From: Bacteroidales bacterium
GTDB taxonomy: Bacteria; Bacteroidota; Bacteroidia; Bacteroidales; UBA932
Reading direction: 5' to 3'
Assembly: GCA_017437125.1 (NCBI GenBank)
Contig: JAFSBV010000025.1
Location: 62,001-126,000 of the forward strand
Length of the DNA: 64,000 bases
Below, piece after piece: positions 5,362 through 10,368 of this stretch. The position numbers and the translations under genes were made by a program. The first letter of the stretch is position 1, and every line of letters begins with the position of its first letter. A model generated the notes under the pieces. It did not search any database. It was not told the DNA's origin and saw nothing but the letters and a program-made list of their open reading frames with translations.

Positions 5362-5658
5362 TTATTTCAGGTGCTTGGAAAAATCCATTCTTTCATGCAG
5401 AATTCTGACAACACGAACTTTGGATCGTGACAAGACACGATATAACACAACATGCTTTCCACACGAATATCCCCTCAACCCAACTCGATAATTATCATAA
5501 GAGCGACCCACCAAAGGCTTATCTGCCAAACTCGCAAATTCTCCGAAAAGCATACGCACATAACGTTCCGCCTGCTCATCTGACCAGCGCCTTTGAGTGT
5601 AGTCAGCTATTTCGCGCAGATCAGTCTTCGCACGTTCAGAAAATACATACTTAGCCAT
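5362..5658 (-). CDS. parE: ParE/RelE-superfamily toxin
   Basis: Toxin half of a type II toxin-antitoxin pair. The 98-residue protein has the ParE-family layout: an N-terminal helical hairpin (SERAKTDLREIADYTQRRW), a middle segment on the pattern of FASLADKPLVGRSYDN, and a C-terminal beta region (GKHVVLYRV, VRVVRILHERMDF). In this family such proteins typically poison DNA gyrase, and the partner antitoxin neutralises them by direct binding. It overlaps the upstream antitoxin gene by 8 bp, so the two are translationally coupled. It lies within the accessory cargo of the polysaccharide locus, where it could stabilise the region. Confidence 0.88.
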   Translation of the reverse strand: MAKYVFSERAKTDLREIADYTQRRWSDEQAERYVRMLFGEFASLADKPLVGRSYDNYRVGLRGYSCGKHVVLYRVLSRSKVRVVRILHERMDFSKHLK

Positions 5659-5902
5659 TATTCCTCCACCCCTCTTTTAATTCTTGAATAAATGCCTCCT
5701 CATCAAAGTCCAAAACATCAGGACTAACATCCCCCTCATCAACAGCTGCGCAAAAAGCAGCAATTCTTGCTTCATCTTCTTCAAGTCTTCGAAGGGCGGC
5801 ACGAACAACTTCACTGGCATTATTATACCGACCTCCAGCTATATTAGCTTGGATAAACTCTTCATAATGTTGTCCTAGTGCAACTGTAACTGTTCTAGCC
5901 AT
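5651..5902 (-). CDS. parD: ParD-like antitoxin
   Basis: Antitoxin partner of the ParE-like toxin, 83 residues. The N-terminus (MARTVTVALGQHYEEFI) fits a ribbon-helix-helix DNA-binding domain, followed by the ParD signature GRYNNASEVVRAALRRLEED. The acidic C-terminal tail (FDEEAFIQELKEGW) is the part expected to wrap the toxin. The antitoxin-first order and 8-bp overlap are typical. By family habit the pair probably autoregulates its own promoter, but no operator could be identified upstream of 5902. Confidence 0.88.
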   Translation of the reverse strand: MARTVTVALGQHYEEFIQANIAGGRYNNASEVVRAALRRLEEDEARIAAFCAAVDEGDVSPDVLDFDEEAFIQELKEGWRNNG

Positions 5903-6329: not shown

Positions 6330-6602
6330 CTATCCTACAATCGCCTCCTTGATACAGCCAACGATATATCGAACATCATCATCAGTCACATATGGACCGG
6401 CAGGGAGACAGAAGCCAACCTTGAAAATTTCCTCAGACACGCCATTCACATAAGCGACGGAATCGGCATATACCGGCTGCTTGTGCATCGGCTTCCATAC
6501 CGGACGGGCCTCGACATTCTCGTTCGGCTGGCAATCGGTAACCGCACTGTCGACCGCATGAATCACGCCCGCGGCACCGCCGACTGCCGTCTTGATGACC
6601 AT
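6330..6602 (-). pseudogene. C-terminal remnant of a DegT/DnrJ/EryC1 sugar aminotransferase
   Basis: The 90-residue frame contains a recognisable C-terminal end of a PLP-dependent nucleotide-sugar aminotransferase: NVEARPVWKPMHKQPVY, then GFCLPAGPYVTDDDVRYIV. These family members are normally 370-400 residues. The catalytic lysine region and about three quarters of the protein are missing, and the first 25 or so residues do not fit the family. It cannot be active. It differs from the intact aminotransferases at 11501 and 18313, so it is a relic of an earlier version of the locus rather than a duplication. Confidence 0.75.
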
Positions 6603-6688: not shown

Positions 6689-7135
6689 TCAAGTACTATA
6701 TGTATGGATAGTTTTAGATAAGAGTTCCTTAATTTTTAAGAAATAATAAGTCATTTTAGAATTAGGTGTGTTCCCAATTATAGGATGTCCCTCAATTTGG
6801 AATTGAATCTCAGCATGAGCTGGTATTAATGATTCAGTCATTACGACATCTATATAATCATTGGCTTTAGCTAAATCTCGAATATCACCAACTTTAGCTA
6901 TTGCATATCCGTAATTCTTGTTCTTTTTAGCATATTCAGACGAAACCTCATAAATCTTTATCTCCTCAATGCGTTCATATATCTGACCAGAGATACCAGT
7001 TTCATCAGGTCGTAAACTTATGAAATTATCTCTGATTTCACCATTAGATATATGTCTCGGCTGAAAGATCCAGCGCAAATAATGTTCTTCTCCTCTTACC
7101 AAACTATCATCCATACTATCAAAATTATCGAACAC
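6689..7135 (-). CDS. Unrecognised protein, third gene of the 8362-6689 module
   Basis: 148-residue soluble protein I do not recognise. Visible features are YLRWIFQPRHISNGEIRDNF, FISLRPDETGISGQIYERI, a middle segment YGYAIAKVGDIRDLAKANDY, and a conserved-looking PAHAEIQFQIEGHPIIGN followed by a basic C-terminal helix (FLKIKELLSK). There is no signal peptide or membrane segment. Its start overlaps the end of the 7125-7634 gene by 11 bp, so it is almost certainly co-expressed with the two upstream genes. The PAHAEI histidine could be catalytic, but that is only a guess. Low-GC composition suggests it was acquired. Confidence 0.7.
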   Translation of the reverse strand: MFDNFDSMDDSLVRGEEHYLRWIFQPRHISNGEIRDNFISLRPDETGISGQIYERIEEIKIYEVSSEYAKKNKNYGYAIAKVGDIRDLAKANDYIDVVMTESLIPAHAEIQFQIEGHPIIGNTPNSKMTYYFLKIKELLSKTIHTYST

Positions 7136-7634
7136 TGATCAGAGACTCAACGAAGTTATCTATATTTTCCTTGTTATATGATATAAATGAAAACCATTCT
7201 ATTTTTCCATTTGTTTGTTCGACAAAGTAAGACATAGATTCATCTCCGTAGTCACAACACACAAGACCGTTCATTGTCTTATATTGAAGCTGAACTCCAC
7301 CCCACTCATTTGGTGACAATTTAATCCTGGGAAATAACTCTGGCTTGATGCAGTTCAAGACAGAACGGCAATTTTGAATAGCTATTGAACTCACTGCAGG
7401 AGATCCATACCCATCCCAGTCTTCATGCAATGTTTCCAAAACAGTCAATTGTTTTAGAAGATGATCCATCGCAGCATCTAAAATACCCGAAATCGAAGCA
7501 TTTCGTCTTTGACTTGTGTACAAAGTTCGTATTTCAGACAATGCATCATCTATTCTTGATAGTTGAAATCTACTGTTTCTTATTGGCATAGGAGAAGAAT
7601 TGCTTTCCCATGTCAAGCCATATGCAATCGTCAT
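7125..7634 (-). CDS. Unrecognised protein with a DWDGYGSP motif, second gene of the module
   Basis: 169-residue soluble protein of unknown role. An N-terminal helical region (residues about 24-65) leads to HEDWDGYGSPAVSS. This resembles the WDGYGA-type motif of many uncharacterised bacterial proteins. It is followed by a beta-rich half (IKLSPNEWGGVQLQY, GLVCCDYGDESMSYFVE, IEWFSFISYN). The start ATG shares an ATGA overlap with the stop of the upstream TIGR04255-like gene (4 bp), and the stop overlaps the next start by 11 bp, so translation of all three is coupled. Such tight coupling suggests a stoichiometric complex. Function is not assigned. Confidence 0.72.
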   Translation of the reverse strand: MTIAYGLTWESNSSPMPIRNSRFQLSRIDDALSEIRTLYTSQRRNASISGILDAAMDHLLKQLTVLETLHEDWDGYGSPAVSSIAIQNCRSVLNCIKPELFPRIKLSPNEWGGVQLQYKTMNGLVCCDYGDESMSYFVEQTNGKIEWFSFISYNKENIDNFVESLISVR

Positions 7635-8362
7635 TTTTGCTCCTCCTTATTCATGATTGCAATTATATTTGCCCCCACACTCCAATGAAAAGCATCGTAT
7701 AGAATAAGATTCATTACTTCCAATGTTTCCTCCAATGTCTGTCCTACTTCTTTCTTGCTTAGTATGGTCTCTAAGAATAAAGAATAGTCTCCGTTCTCAC
7801 GTTTAATTATATATGTCCTAAACAACACCTCATCAACAGACCTATTCTGAACCATGATTGAGTTACCATCAATTTCCCAGGTTGTCGCCTTAGAAGCGAG
7901 TTGAAGAAATTCTGACGAAAACACAGTTTCATATAAGAGAGAATGGAAATCATCTTCAGCCAGATTAATGTTGTTATCCATTGTAAACACATTAACCTTT
8001 CGTATTGCTGCCGTTACTTCCTGTTGTTTCCAAAGATTAAACACAAAATCCTTGATATGATATACATTGGGAAGAACGCTATCGTAGAAACTTCTATAAT
8101 TAAGGTGGCCAACGCTAAGCATTGCAGCATCTGATGAAAACAAGAATGCCAATTGCTTTTGGTTGTCCTTAAGAAAGACTCCATCTTCTAAGAGAGTGGA
8201 AATGTTTGCTTCTATCTGAAAATGGTTGTTGAAAAAGGATATGACATCTTCCTCTGGTATCCTCTCTCTTTGCAAAGAATTATATTCTAACCTGACATCT
8301 ACCTGCTGTAAAAATGTCTGGGCATAAATCTTTCGTTCTATATGCTTAAATACAGTATTCAT
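7631..8362 (-). CDS. TIGR04255-like protein, first gene of the module
   Basis: 243-residue protein whose layout resembles the sporadically distributed TIGR04255 family (about 260 residues, unknown function). There is an N-terminal beta strand region (FLQQVDVRLEYN), a middle LAFLFSSDAAMLSVGHLNYR followed by FYDSVLP, then IRKVNVFTMDNNIN, and an acidic C-terminal half ending in a helix (LILYDAFHWSVGANI). The family call is from pattern memory and moderate only. A longer reading to 8443 exists, but a TAnnTTTG element at 8408-8415 lies inside that extension, so the ATG at 8360-8362 is chosen (about 40-base leader). It heads the three-gene overlapping operon. Confidence 0.68.
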   Translation of the reverse strand: MNTVFKHIERKIYAQTFLQQVDVRLEYNSLQRERIPEEDVISFFNNHFQIEANISTLLEDGVFLKDNQKQLAFLFSSDAAMLSVGHLNYRSFYDSVLPNVYHIKDFVFNLWKQQEVTAAIRKVNVFTMDNNINLAEDDFHSLLYETVFSSEFLQLASKATTWEIDGNSIMVQNRSVDEVLFRTYIIKRENGDYSLFLETILSKKEVGQTLEETLEVMNLILYDAFHWSVGANIIAIMNKEEQK

Positions 8363-8644: not shown

Positions 8645-9421
8645 TTAATGACTAGCTTCCTGTATCTGAGTTTCTTCAGAATAGGGTTCTAAACTATCTC
8701 CCCAAAACTCTTCTGGAGTCAGAGTAATAGTATTCGCTTTATAGTATAGATTGAGTGCAAGCGCAGATGGGGTAAGGTGAGCAACCATTTCTTCATCATC
8801 CACAATGAATCCAGACACATTTATTAATCCATTAGAGAACAATCCGAGAGAAATCATGTGATCTAACTCTCTATCAATTCTTCTCACATCAGTAACCCCA
8901 GTAAGACTTATAATTTCCTCTAGAGATACACGAAAATCATGATTAGTATAAATCAATTTATTGGGATAAATATACTTTTTACAATTGAAACAGCAATAGC
9001 TAAGTACTTTCACTTCAAAGGCAGTCAAATCTTTCAAAAGATTCACAAATATTAGATTCTGGTCGTCTTTGCCATCTTCTGTACAAGAAGATGCGAACAA
9101 ACCTGCCCACCATTCCTGCAATGTATCATCGTCAACTAAAGATGCATTTTCAATAATGGACAATGCAACTTTAGGATTTGCTTTTAACTGAAACTGATTA
9201 TCACAAAACTCTAGTTTACCTTCAGATTTCTCTAGAACTCTTATAATATTATTCAATCGCCATGATCTTATACCATCTTGAAGCATTCTACCTAACTCTT
9301 CACATGCAGGAAGGCATACTGCTGATAAAAATAGGCCAACACCACTTAATGTGCTGTCTACAATAGATTTGGTTGCTTCTCCAAATGGACGAATCCCCAA
9401 AAGGTCTTTTTCTTCTGACAT
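8645..9421 (-). CDS. Abi-alpha (DUF4393)-like protein
   Basis: 258-residue protein resembling the Abi-alpha/DUF4393 family, named for a link to abortive phage infection. The diagnostic part is around residues 80-112: NPKVALSIIENASLVDDD, then LQEWWAGLFASS, matching the family pattern of a helical block followed by D(D/E)xLQxxWAxLLA. A C-terminal region (EEIISLTGVTDVRRIDRELDH) looks like a winged-helix or helical regulatory part. An N-terminal hydrophobic stretch (TLSGVGLFLSAVCLP) may associate with membrane. It follows the channel-like gene after 38 bp on the same strand, so the two probably form one operon. The mechanism of this family is not established. Confidence 0.7.
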   Translation of the reverse strand: MSEEKDLLGIRPFGEATKSIVDSTLSGVGLFLSAVCLPACEELGRMLQDGIRSWRLNNIIRVLEKSEGKLEFCDNQFQLKANPKVALSIIENASLVDDDTLQEWWAGLFASSCTEDGKDDQNLIFVNLLKDLTAFEVKVLSYCCFNCKKYIYPNKLIYTNHDFRVSLEEIISLTGVTDVRRIDRELDHMISLGLFSNGLINVSGFIVDDEEMVAHLTPSALALNLYYKANTITLTPEEFWGDSLEPYSEETQIQEASH

Positions 9422-9459
9422 TTCTATATCAATAGGTGTATGAAAATATAACCAGTTGA

Positions 9460-10368
9460 TTACTTCTTTCTTACTAAATAATCAACAATGAAAGCGACTA
9501 AAACTATACCAACCAGAAGTTGTAATGATACAAAAATTCTTGATAGCGATGAGTTTGGCAAAATGTCTCCAAAACTATTGGAAGTTGCTATCAATAGGCT
9601 GAAATGGATGAAGTCTATAAAACAAAGTTTATCGAGTCGTTGCCTATGAAATTCATCTAACATATTACTGTACGTATTAAACAACTCTCTCTTTATATCC
9701 TCGCAAGCTCGGATATGAGAACATGTTTCTAAATATGCACTAACGGTATTTTGAAGAGAATCGGCAAGCTCACGATTCCCGAAACTTCCAAAGTTATCAA
9801 CTATAGTCGTAGAAACTTGGAGATTCTTTTGAGCTAAACGATAATTCATGTTAGCCAAGCGAACATAACTTCCATTCAATACTAGCTGATCTTCTGTTAT
9901 ACCGAATCGAAGTGATTCCTCAAGCGACTGCTCGTAAGCAGTTATTGAATCTCGAAGTGAACTCAACTGATCATTCCTGTATCTTTCAATATCCTCTGTT
10001 CTACTATCCATCAGGCGCAAGCTTTGCTCTTCTCTTCGACGTTCGAGATCGTCATTATATGTATGTAACGAATCAATTTTTTCGTAAACACGTAAAAGAC
10101 TATCATTAATGAATTTAATTTTTTGATTAAAATCATCTATACTAAACGGGTTAACAGACCTGTCTACAATATCATACAACACTTCAGGTGAGTGATAGAC
10201 ATACCTACCATTTACTTTCTCGTTATATTCTTCTGAAATATAGAAAGATGCCGTATTACTTATAAATAACAAATAATATAATACAGCAAAAGCCAATACG
10301 AAAAATACAAACAAGAAGCAATAGAAGAATAGTTTTCTACGCTTATAGTCCTGTAAATTCTTCTGCAT
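9460..10368 (-). CDS. Potassium-channel-like membrane protein with long coiled-coil insert
   Basis: 302-residue membrane protein. The first membrane helix is at about 13-36. A long charged heptad-rich region (about 77-153, rich in E, R, L and D) follows. The C-terminus has a pore-helix-like stretch (FIDFIHFSLLIATSNSFGDI, 250-269) and a last membrane helix (277-298). This matches the P-loop plus inner helix of two-helix potassium channels (Ion_trans_2 pattern). However, the filter position TVGYGD reads SNSFGD (263-268), with the first glycine replaced by serine. About 200 residues separate the two helices, far more than usual. Two genes downstream-to-upstream order pairs it with the Abi-alpha-like gene. 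I infer a gated pore or membrane-damaging effector. Confidence 0.68.
   Translation of the reverse strand: MQKNLQDYKRRKLFFYCFLFVFFVLAFAVLYYLLFISNTASFYISEEYNEKVNGRYVYHSPEVLYDIVDRSVNPFSIDDFNQKIKFINDSLLRVYEKIDSLHTYNDDLERRREEQSLRLMDSRTEDIERYRNDQLSSLRDSITAYEQSLEESLRFGITEDQLVLNGSYVRLANMNYRLAQKNLQVSTTIVDNFGSFGNRELADSLQNTVSAYLETCSHIRACEDIKRELFNTYSNMLDEFHRQRLDKLCFIDFIHFSLLIATSNSFGDILPNSSLSRIFVSLQLLVGIVLVAFIVDYLVRKK

Follow-up and report, generated by a model that had tools for sequence, protein, structure and literature searches.

What kind of system do three overlapping minus-strand genes, here called A, B and C, encode in a stretch of Bacteroidales DNA (64,000 nucleotides of contig JAFSBV010000025.1, hereafter the window)? 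The initial annotation saw no sugar-chemistry signature in them and proposed an undescribed defence or conflict system. We favour, with modest confidence, a tripartite toxin-antitoxin-like cassette. A conflict module is the best reading of the locus because the three genes form a conserved unit without a glycan or housekeeping match and because some sister cassettes carry a known toxin family as third gene. The word undescribed holds only in part, as a pair resembling B and C is already listed as the PADLOC candidate PDC-M32.

Coupled genes in a conserved order

The open reading frames (ORFs) of A, B and C lie where the initial annotation had placed them, overlapping by 4 bp (ATGA) between A and B and by 11 bp between B and C, and the motifs DWDGYGS and IPAHAEI are present as it had described. 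The 11-bp overlap holds if translation of C begins at its GTG; were it to begin at the next in-frame ATG (7114-7112), a gap of 10 bp would separate the two genes. The TAnnTTTG element claimed for the first gene is likewise borne out by an exact promoter match, TTTG-N23-TATCTTTG, at 8411-8377 (-). Elements of the form TTTG-N17..25-TAnnTTTG occur 11 times in the window against 2.33 expected, a count that none of 100 shuffles reached.

A search of 101 relatives with B yielded one further genome, of the same genus (L002, identical to L013), in which the same three genes follow in the same order with overlaps of 4 and 13 bp. The window itself shows the class-1 arrangement, in which an A gene is followed within one operon by a WDGYG-type B and, directly after it, an R-S-H-type C; the A part is assigned by position and weak alignment only. 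Genes of the family TIGR04255, to which A appears remotely related, are sporadic, occurring in 10 of 298 relatives and 23 of 395 genomes of the phylum (22 above the NCBIfam cut-off of 30 bits), with none in 14 control genomes in each search. These searches gave 11 and 25 loci; 35 of the 36 were processed (L043, below the cut-off, was omitted) and 33 were parsed, the unparsed ones being L031, which has a PemK-type gene, and L039, which is broken by stops. At 32 of the 33 parsed loci, A is followed by two ORFs on the same strand, each beginning at most 90 bp past the previous one; one ORF follows at L041.

Scanning genome contigs with an alignment of A proteins (A4) produced 63 loci in more than 15 phyla by record title, one labelled Thaumarchaeota. 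Window-class B and C follow at 38 loci, a HEAT-like protein and DUF7689 at 18 and SQSCDL-type genes at 2, shares that are biased because the query consists of three class-1 and one class-2 A proteins. The rest comprise one B with an atypical third gene (L079), one unclassified locus (L108) and three at contig ends (L099, L101, L104). The locus sets overlap, with L004/L091, L034/L098 and L035/L050 in both, and L087/L088 are identical. The reverse search, with C and without A, covered 149 genomes of the L051 phylum and gave four matches, namely L051 itself, two new full-length copies that each follow an A and a B gene, and a fragment of 34 residues that lacks such neighbours. Eight genomes reached via earlier loci hold exactly one C match (six genomes) or none (two). 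Approached from A and from C alike, the order A-B-C recurs, so the homologues are neighbours elsewhere, on which the initial annotation had staked its proposal. The operon is coupled and its order is conserved in many phyla; since independent genomes keep the same gene order, the coupling is not accidental.

Relatives also reside on three plasmids, from Crinalium, Vibrio and Thermus. The Crinalium plasmid carries A and then two genes. On the Vibrio plasmid (CP063527.1, L124:158-2105), a TIGR04255 gene and a hypothetical gene precede one annotated 'zeta toxin family protein', a label drawn from the deposited annotation and from a P-loop-like stretch noticed on visual inspection, as a PDB search gave only weak kinase rows. 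In Thermus, a single stretch of 6.7 kb holds A together with VapC, a DNA methylase and cas6, and one hypothetical gene is annotated close downstream of A. The class-1 module is further found on two viral contigs; on one of them (L110:768-10042) it lies between a gene with tail/spike matches and a gene whose matches to virion-structural proteins are short, with three further ORFs between. Searches of viral contigs with window A and window B, of plasmids with window A, window C, L011 C and L014 A, and of phages with L109 C, L124 A and L110 A gave no relative.

This distribution bears on a quite different explanation, a housekeeping or surface-polysaccharide regulatory operon that sits in a capsule locus by chance. 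Polysaccharide-type genes do adjoin the module in the ORF list, but the Pfam searches of A, B and C return no glycan family, and the relatives are spread over many phyla and three plasmids, with TIGR04255 occurring sporadically. We find this already disfavoured explanation scarcely credible.

Table 1 Features of the operon and its neighbours in the window
Feature	Position	Strand	Properties	Assignment
Gene A	7631-8362	-	ATG start, 243 aa	First gene of the operon; distantly TIGR04255-like protein, shared by the cassettes
Gene B	7125-7634	-	ATG start, 169 aa, DWDGYGS	WDGYG-domain protein, presumed antitoxin/adaptor
Gene C	6689-7135	-	GTG start, 148 aa, IPAHAEI	Presumed effector, R-S-H ADP-ribosyltransferase-like family (R21, S49, H107)
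Bacteroidales-type promoter	8411-8377	-	TTTG-N23-TAnnTTTG	Directly upstream of gene A
ParD-ParE toxin-antitoxin pair	5362-5902	-	Pfam: ParE 1.2e-20, ParD 1.3e-22	
Abi_alpha gene	8645-9421	-	Pfam 3.1e-18	Weak PADLOC PDC-S47 matches

Replacement of the third gene together with its partner

Effector and partner change together, while the A family in front of them stays the same. At nine of the 32 loci the third gene belongs to the window's C family by profile, and at seven it is C-like by eye only (L006, L011, L032, L036, L037, L038, L040), the C profile failing there (best E 0.32). The other 16 carry genes of SQSCDL type (5), PemK type (4), DUF7689 type (3), a 171-aa family (3) or a HEPN-like kind (1). 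PemK is above the Pfam cut-off in both third genes tested (1.6e-14 and 4.1e-13), DUF7689 matches at 4.3e-38 in the one tested, and the HEPN match lies under the cut-off (0.0043). The middle gene varies with the third, a WDGYG protein accompanying C, a HEAT-like protein DUF7689, and short proteins PemK or SQSCDL.

In the DUF7689 protein at L084:6172-6618 and its relatives (alignment A11, n=11), C33, H102, D121 and H124 are invariant and could form a cysteine-hydrolase active site.

Window C has no NCBIfam match at E ≤ 1 and, in Pfam, a sub-threshold match to DUF2794 only (0.039). It ranks first of 603 in the search with the C profile and retains R, S and H; in the family alignment R and S are invariant, and the third invariant residue is a histidine. 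A relative of C has a predicted ADP-ribosyltransferase (ART) fold, and C looks like a compact protein of that fold, a small ADP-ribosyltransferase-like protein.

Window B has no Pfam or NCBIfam match at E ≤ 1 and fits the B profile at 9.8e-9/1.3e-11. It weakly matches (1.1e-4) the C-terminal end of PDC-M32A, covering only profile positions 263-370 of 375; with 169 residues and without a fused N-terminal domain, it lacks the PDC-M32A architecture. The idea that PDC-M32A fuses TIGR04255 with B was rejected, its N-terminal part giving no TIGR04255 match in the two members tested. Six genomes from a single genus of the phylum (L015-L020) carry pairs of PDC-M32A and PDC-M32B with a 4-bp overlap, and M32B of L019, judged by eye, retains the three residues R, S and H that mark family C. 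The plasmid search with window B gave a single match, a B-like protein (29% identity over 70%) on the Segatella copri plasmid NZ_CP085934.1 (L003:3929-4405), near a Panacea-domain gene; the stretch shown contains no TIGR04255-annotated gene.

Gene A and the proposed mechanism

Window A has no Pfam, NCBIfam or PADLOC match at E ≤ 1. In the same-genus locus L002, a TIGR04255 gene (E 1.9e-14) occupies its position, and the A homologues of L002, L011 and L012 pass the cut-off (54.1, 81.2 and 79.5 bits). Because no family reaches E ≤ 1 for window A while these homologues pass, we call it a remote relative, too divergent for the profile, rather than a member. Its local alignment to the TIGR04255 proteins of L012 and L014 is better than 300 of 300 shuffles. 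The resemblance reported by the initial annotation thus persists as a weak assignment by gene order and local alignment, not as a match to the family model. When a profile combining window A with the A proteins of L014 and L012 was run against 247 genomes of the order, its three matches were the query rows themselves and no bridging copy emerged. Such extreme divergence would suit a decayed or repurposed remnant of a cassette, but the three open frames, the intact overlaps, the promoter and the R, S and H kept in C make this very unlikely for the window copy.

The predicted fold of an A relative (L046, the A protein modelled) resembles guanidino kinases and TBP in a fold search. A as a SecB-like chaperone was rejected: SecB in Pfam matches neither window A (E ≤ 1) nor the A proteins of L014 and L004 (E ≤ 10), and no SecB row is among the fold matches listed, which by itself excludes nothing. 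PDB sequence searches with alignments of A, B, C and DUF7689 gave nothing useful. The predicted likeness to guanidino kinases and TBP would also accord with a defence system of another type, in which A would be a sensor that also modifies or binds some target, B would serve as adaptor, and C, an effector binding ADP-ribose or NAD, would become active solely upon infection, without addiction. However, the fold matches have middling Z scores with unrelated rows among them, and third genes of the PemK and zeta-annotated kinds typically belong to toxin-antitoxin pairs; we consider this alternative rather unlikely.

In the toxin-antitoxin-like cassette that we favour, C would be the effector, an ART-fold protein that modifies a cell component, or binds or consumes NAD, and so stops growth. 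B, made just before C, would act as its class-specific partner and neutraliser, and A would be the common component that keeps the B-C complex silent. It would probably also detect a trigger, for instance an infecting phage, in the manner of the SecB-like CmdC of CmdTAC. Phage defence is plausible, given the similarity to PDC-M32, the viral contig L110, and the Abi_alpha and ParDE neighbours. Toxicity of C, neutralisation by B, sensing by A and phage defence are all inferred, as is a like mode of action for the divergent window copy.

Several results weigh against this picture. Window A does not reach the cut-off of the TIGR04255 model, a hidden Markov model of 92 A proteins misses it, hhalign places it inside the shuffle range for two of three profiles, and its global alignment score exceeds all shuffles for only 2 of the 92. 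In the C family, column 103, nearest the histidine, holds N in 22 sequences, D in 8, E in 4 and other residues in 13; because the catalytic glutamate of R-S-E ARTs is not conserved there, C may bind rather than transfer. Foldseek alone gives C no significant match (best E 0.43), and the fold models are those of relatives' proteins. The bias in class shares counts here as well. In a PADLOC scan of the flanks, covering 104 of 175 listed ORFs with no control set, the leading families, among the best 25 of 243, match 2 of 104 proteins each, so that enrichment in defence genes is weak and uncontrolled.

Genomic surroundings and known systems

The toxin-antitoxin pair and the Abi-alpha gene named as neighbours by the initial annotation are recovered by Pfam as ParE, ParD and Abi_alpha (Table 1). 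The ParDE pair has its own promoter, TTTG-N19-TAnnTTTG, at 5951-5921. A 302-aa predicted membrane ion-channel protein (Ion_trans_2 7e-6, Pfam) is encoded directly before Abi_alpha on the same strand, and the two genes (8645-10368, -) possibly form a second, two-gene conflict operon. Adjoining the module is a gene remnant, a 90-aa ORF (6330-6602, -) whose match to a DegT/DnrJ aminotransferase is confined to the end of the profile (298-359 of 360).

Among known systems, the phage-defence candidate PDC-M32 (M32A plus M32B), already named in the literature, is close to the B-C pair. A WDG-type domain comparable to B forms the end of M32A, M32B is similar to C (L011 C matches it at 1.6e-4), and their genes overlap by 4 bp. 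It differs in having two genes rather than three, M32A being a fusion with an N-terminal part of its own. TIGR04255 (sporadTIGR04255 in NCBIfam, function unassigned there) agrees with gene A in position, length and gene order, with a same-genus homologue above the cut-off, whereas window A itself falls below the model. Compared with type II toxin-antitoxin pairs (PemK/MazF, HEPN, zeta, DarT and RES toxins), these loci have an additional common first gene of the TIGR04255 family. In a literature search whose reach did not include bioRxiv preprints, TIGR04255, sporadTIGR04255, CHP04255, IPR026349, DUF7689 and PF24738 were not named.

The gene order of CmdTAC differs from that of this cassette. 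According to its description, a SecB-like chaperone in CmdTAC stabilises the antitoxin that holds an mRNA ADP-ribosyltransferase, which a phage capsid protein releases (PMC11618068). Both systems would comprise three genes, one for an effector of ART type, one for an antitoxin and one for a further component. CmdC is SecB-like, whereas the A relative models as a guanidino-kinase/TBP-like fold; the triad given for CmdT in that text is HY-[E,D,Q] (PMC11618068), whereas C has an invariant R-S-H. The cassette resembles CmdTAC on paper and is not filed as a toxin-antitoxin-chaperone (TAC) system, because SecB homology was not found and the ART triad differs.

It is reasonably likely that the TIGR04255-led family exceeds in breadth what has been described so far. 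We give even weight to the proposal that TIGR04255 proteins form the shared core of a large, as yet unrecognised family of tripartite toxin-antitoxin or defence cassettes in bacteria, perhaps also archaea. Each cassette would link a hub of guanidino-kinase/TBP-like fold to a class-specific partner and an exchangeable effector (R-S-H ART, PemK, HEPN, zeta, DUF7689 with invariant C-H-H, or SQSCDL), the R-S-H effectors forming a new ART clade. If true, the curated but unexplained TIGR04255, DUF7689 and the WDG proteins would gain a function at once, and the family would offer a second answer to the TAC problem, with one shared component controlling many toxins without a detected relation to SecB.
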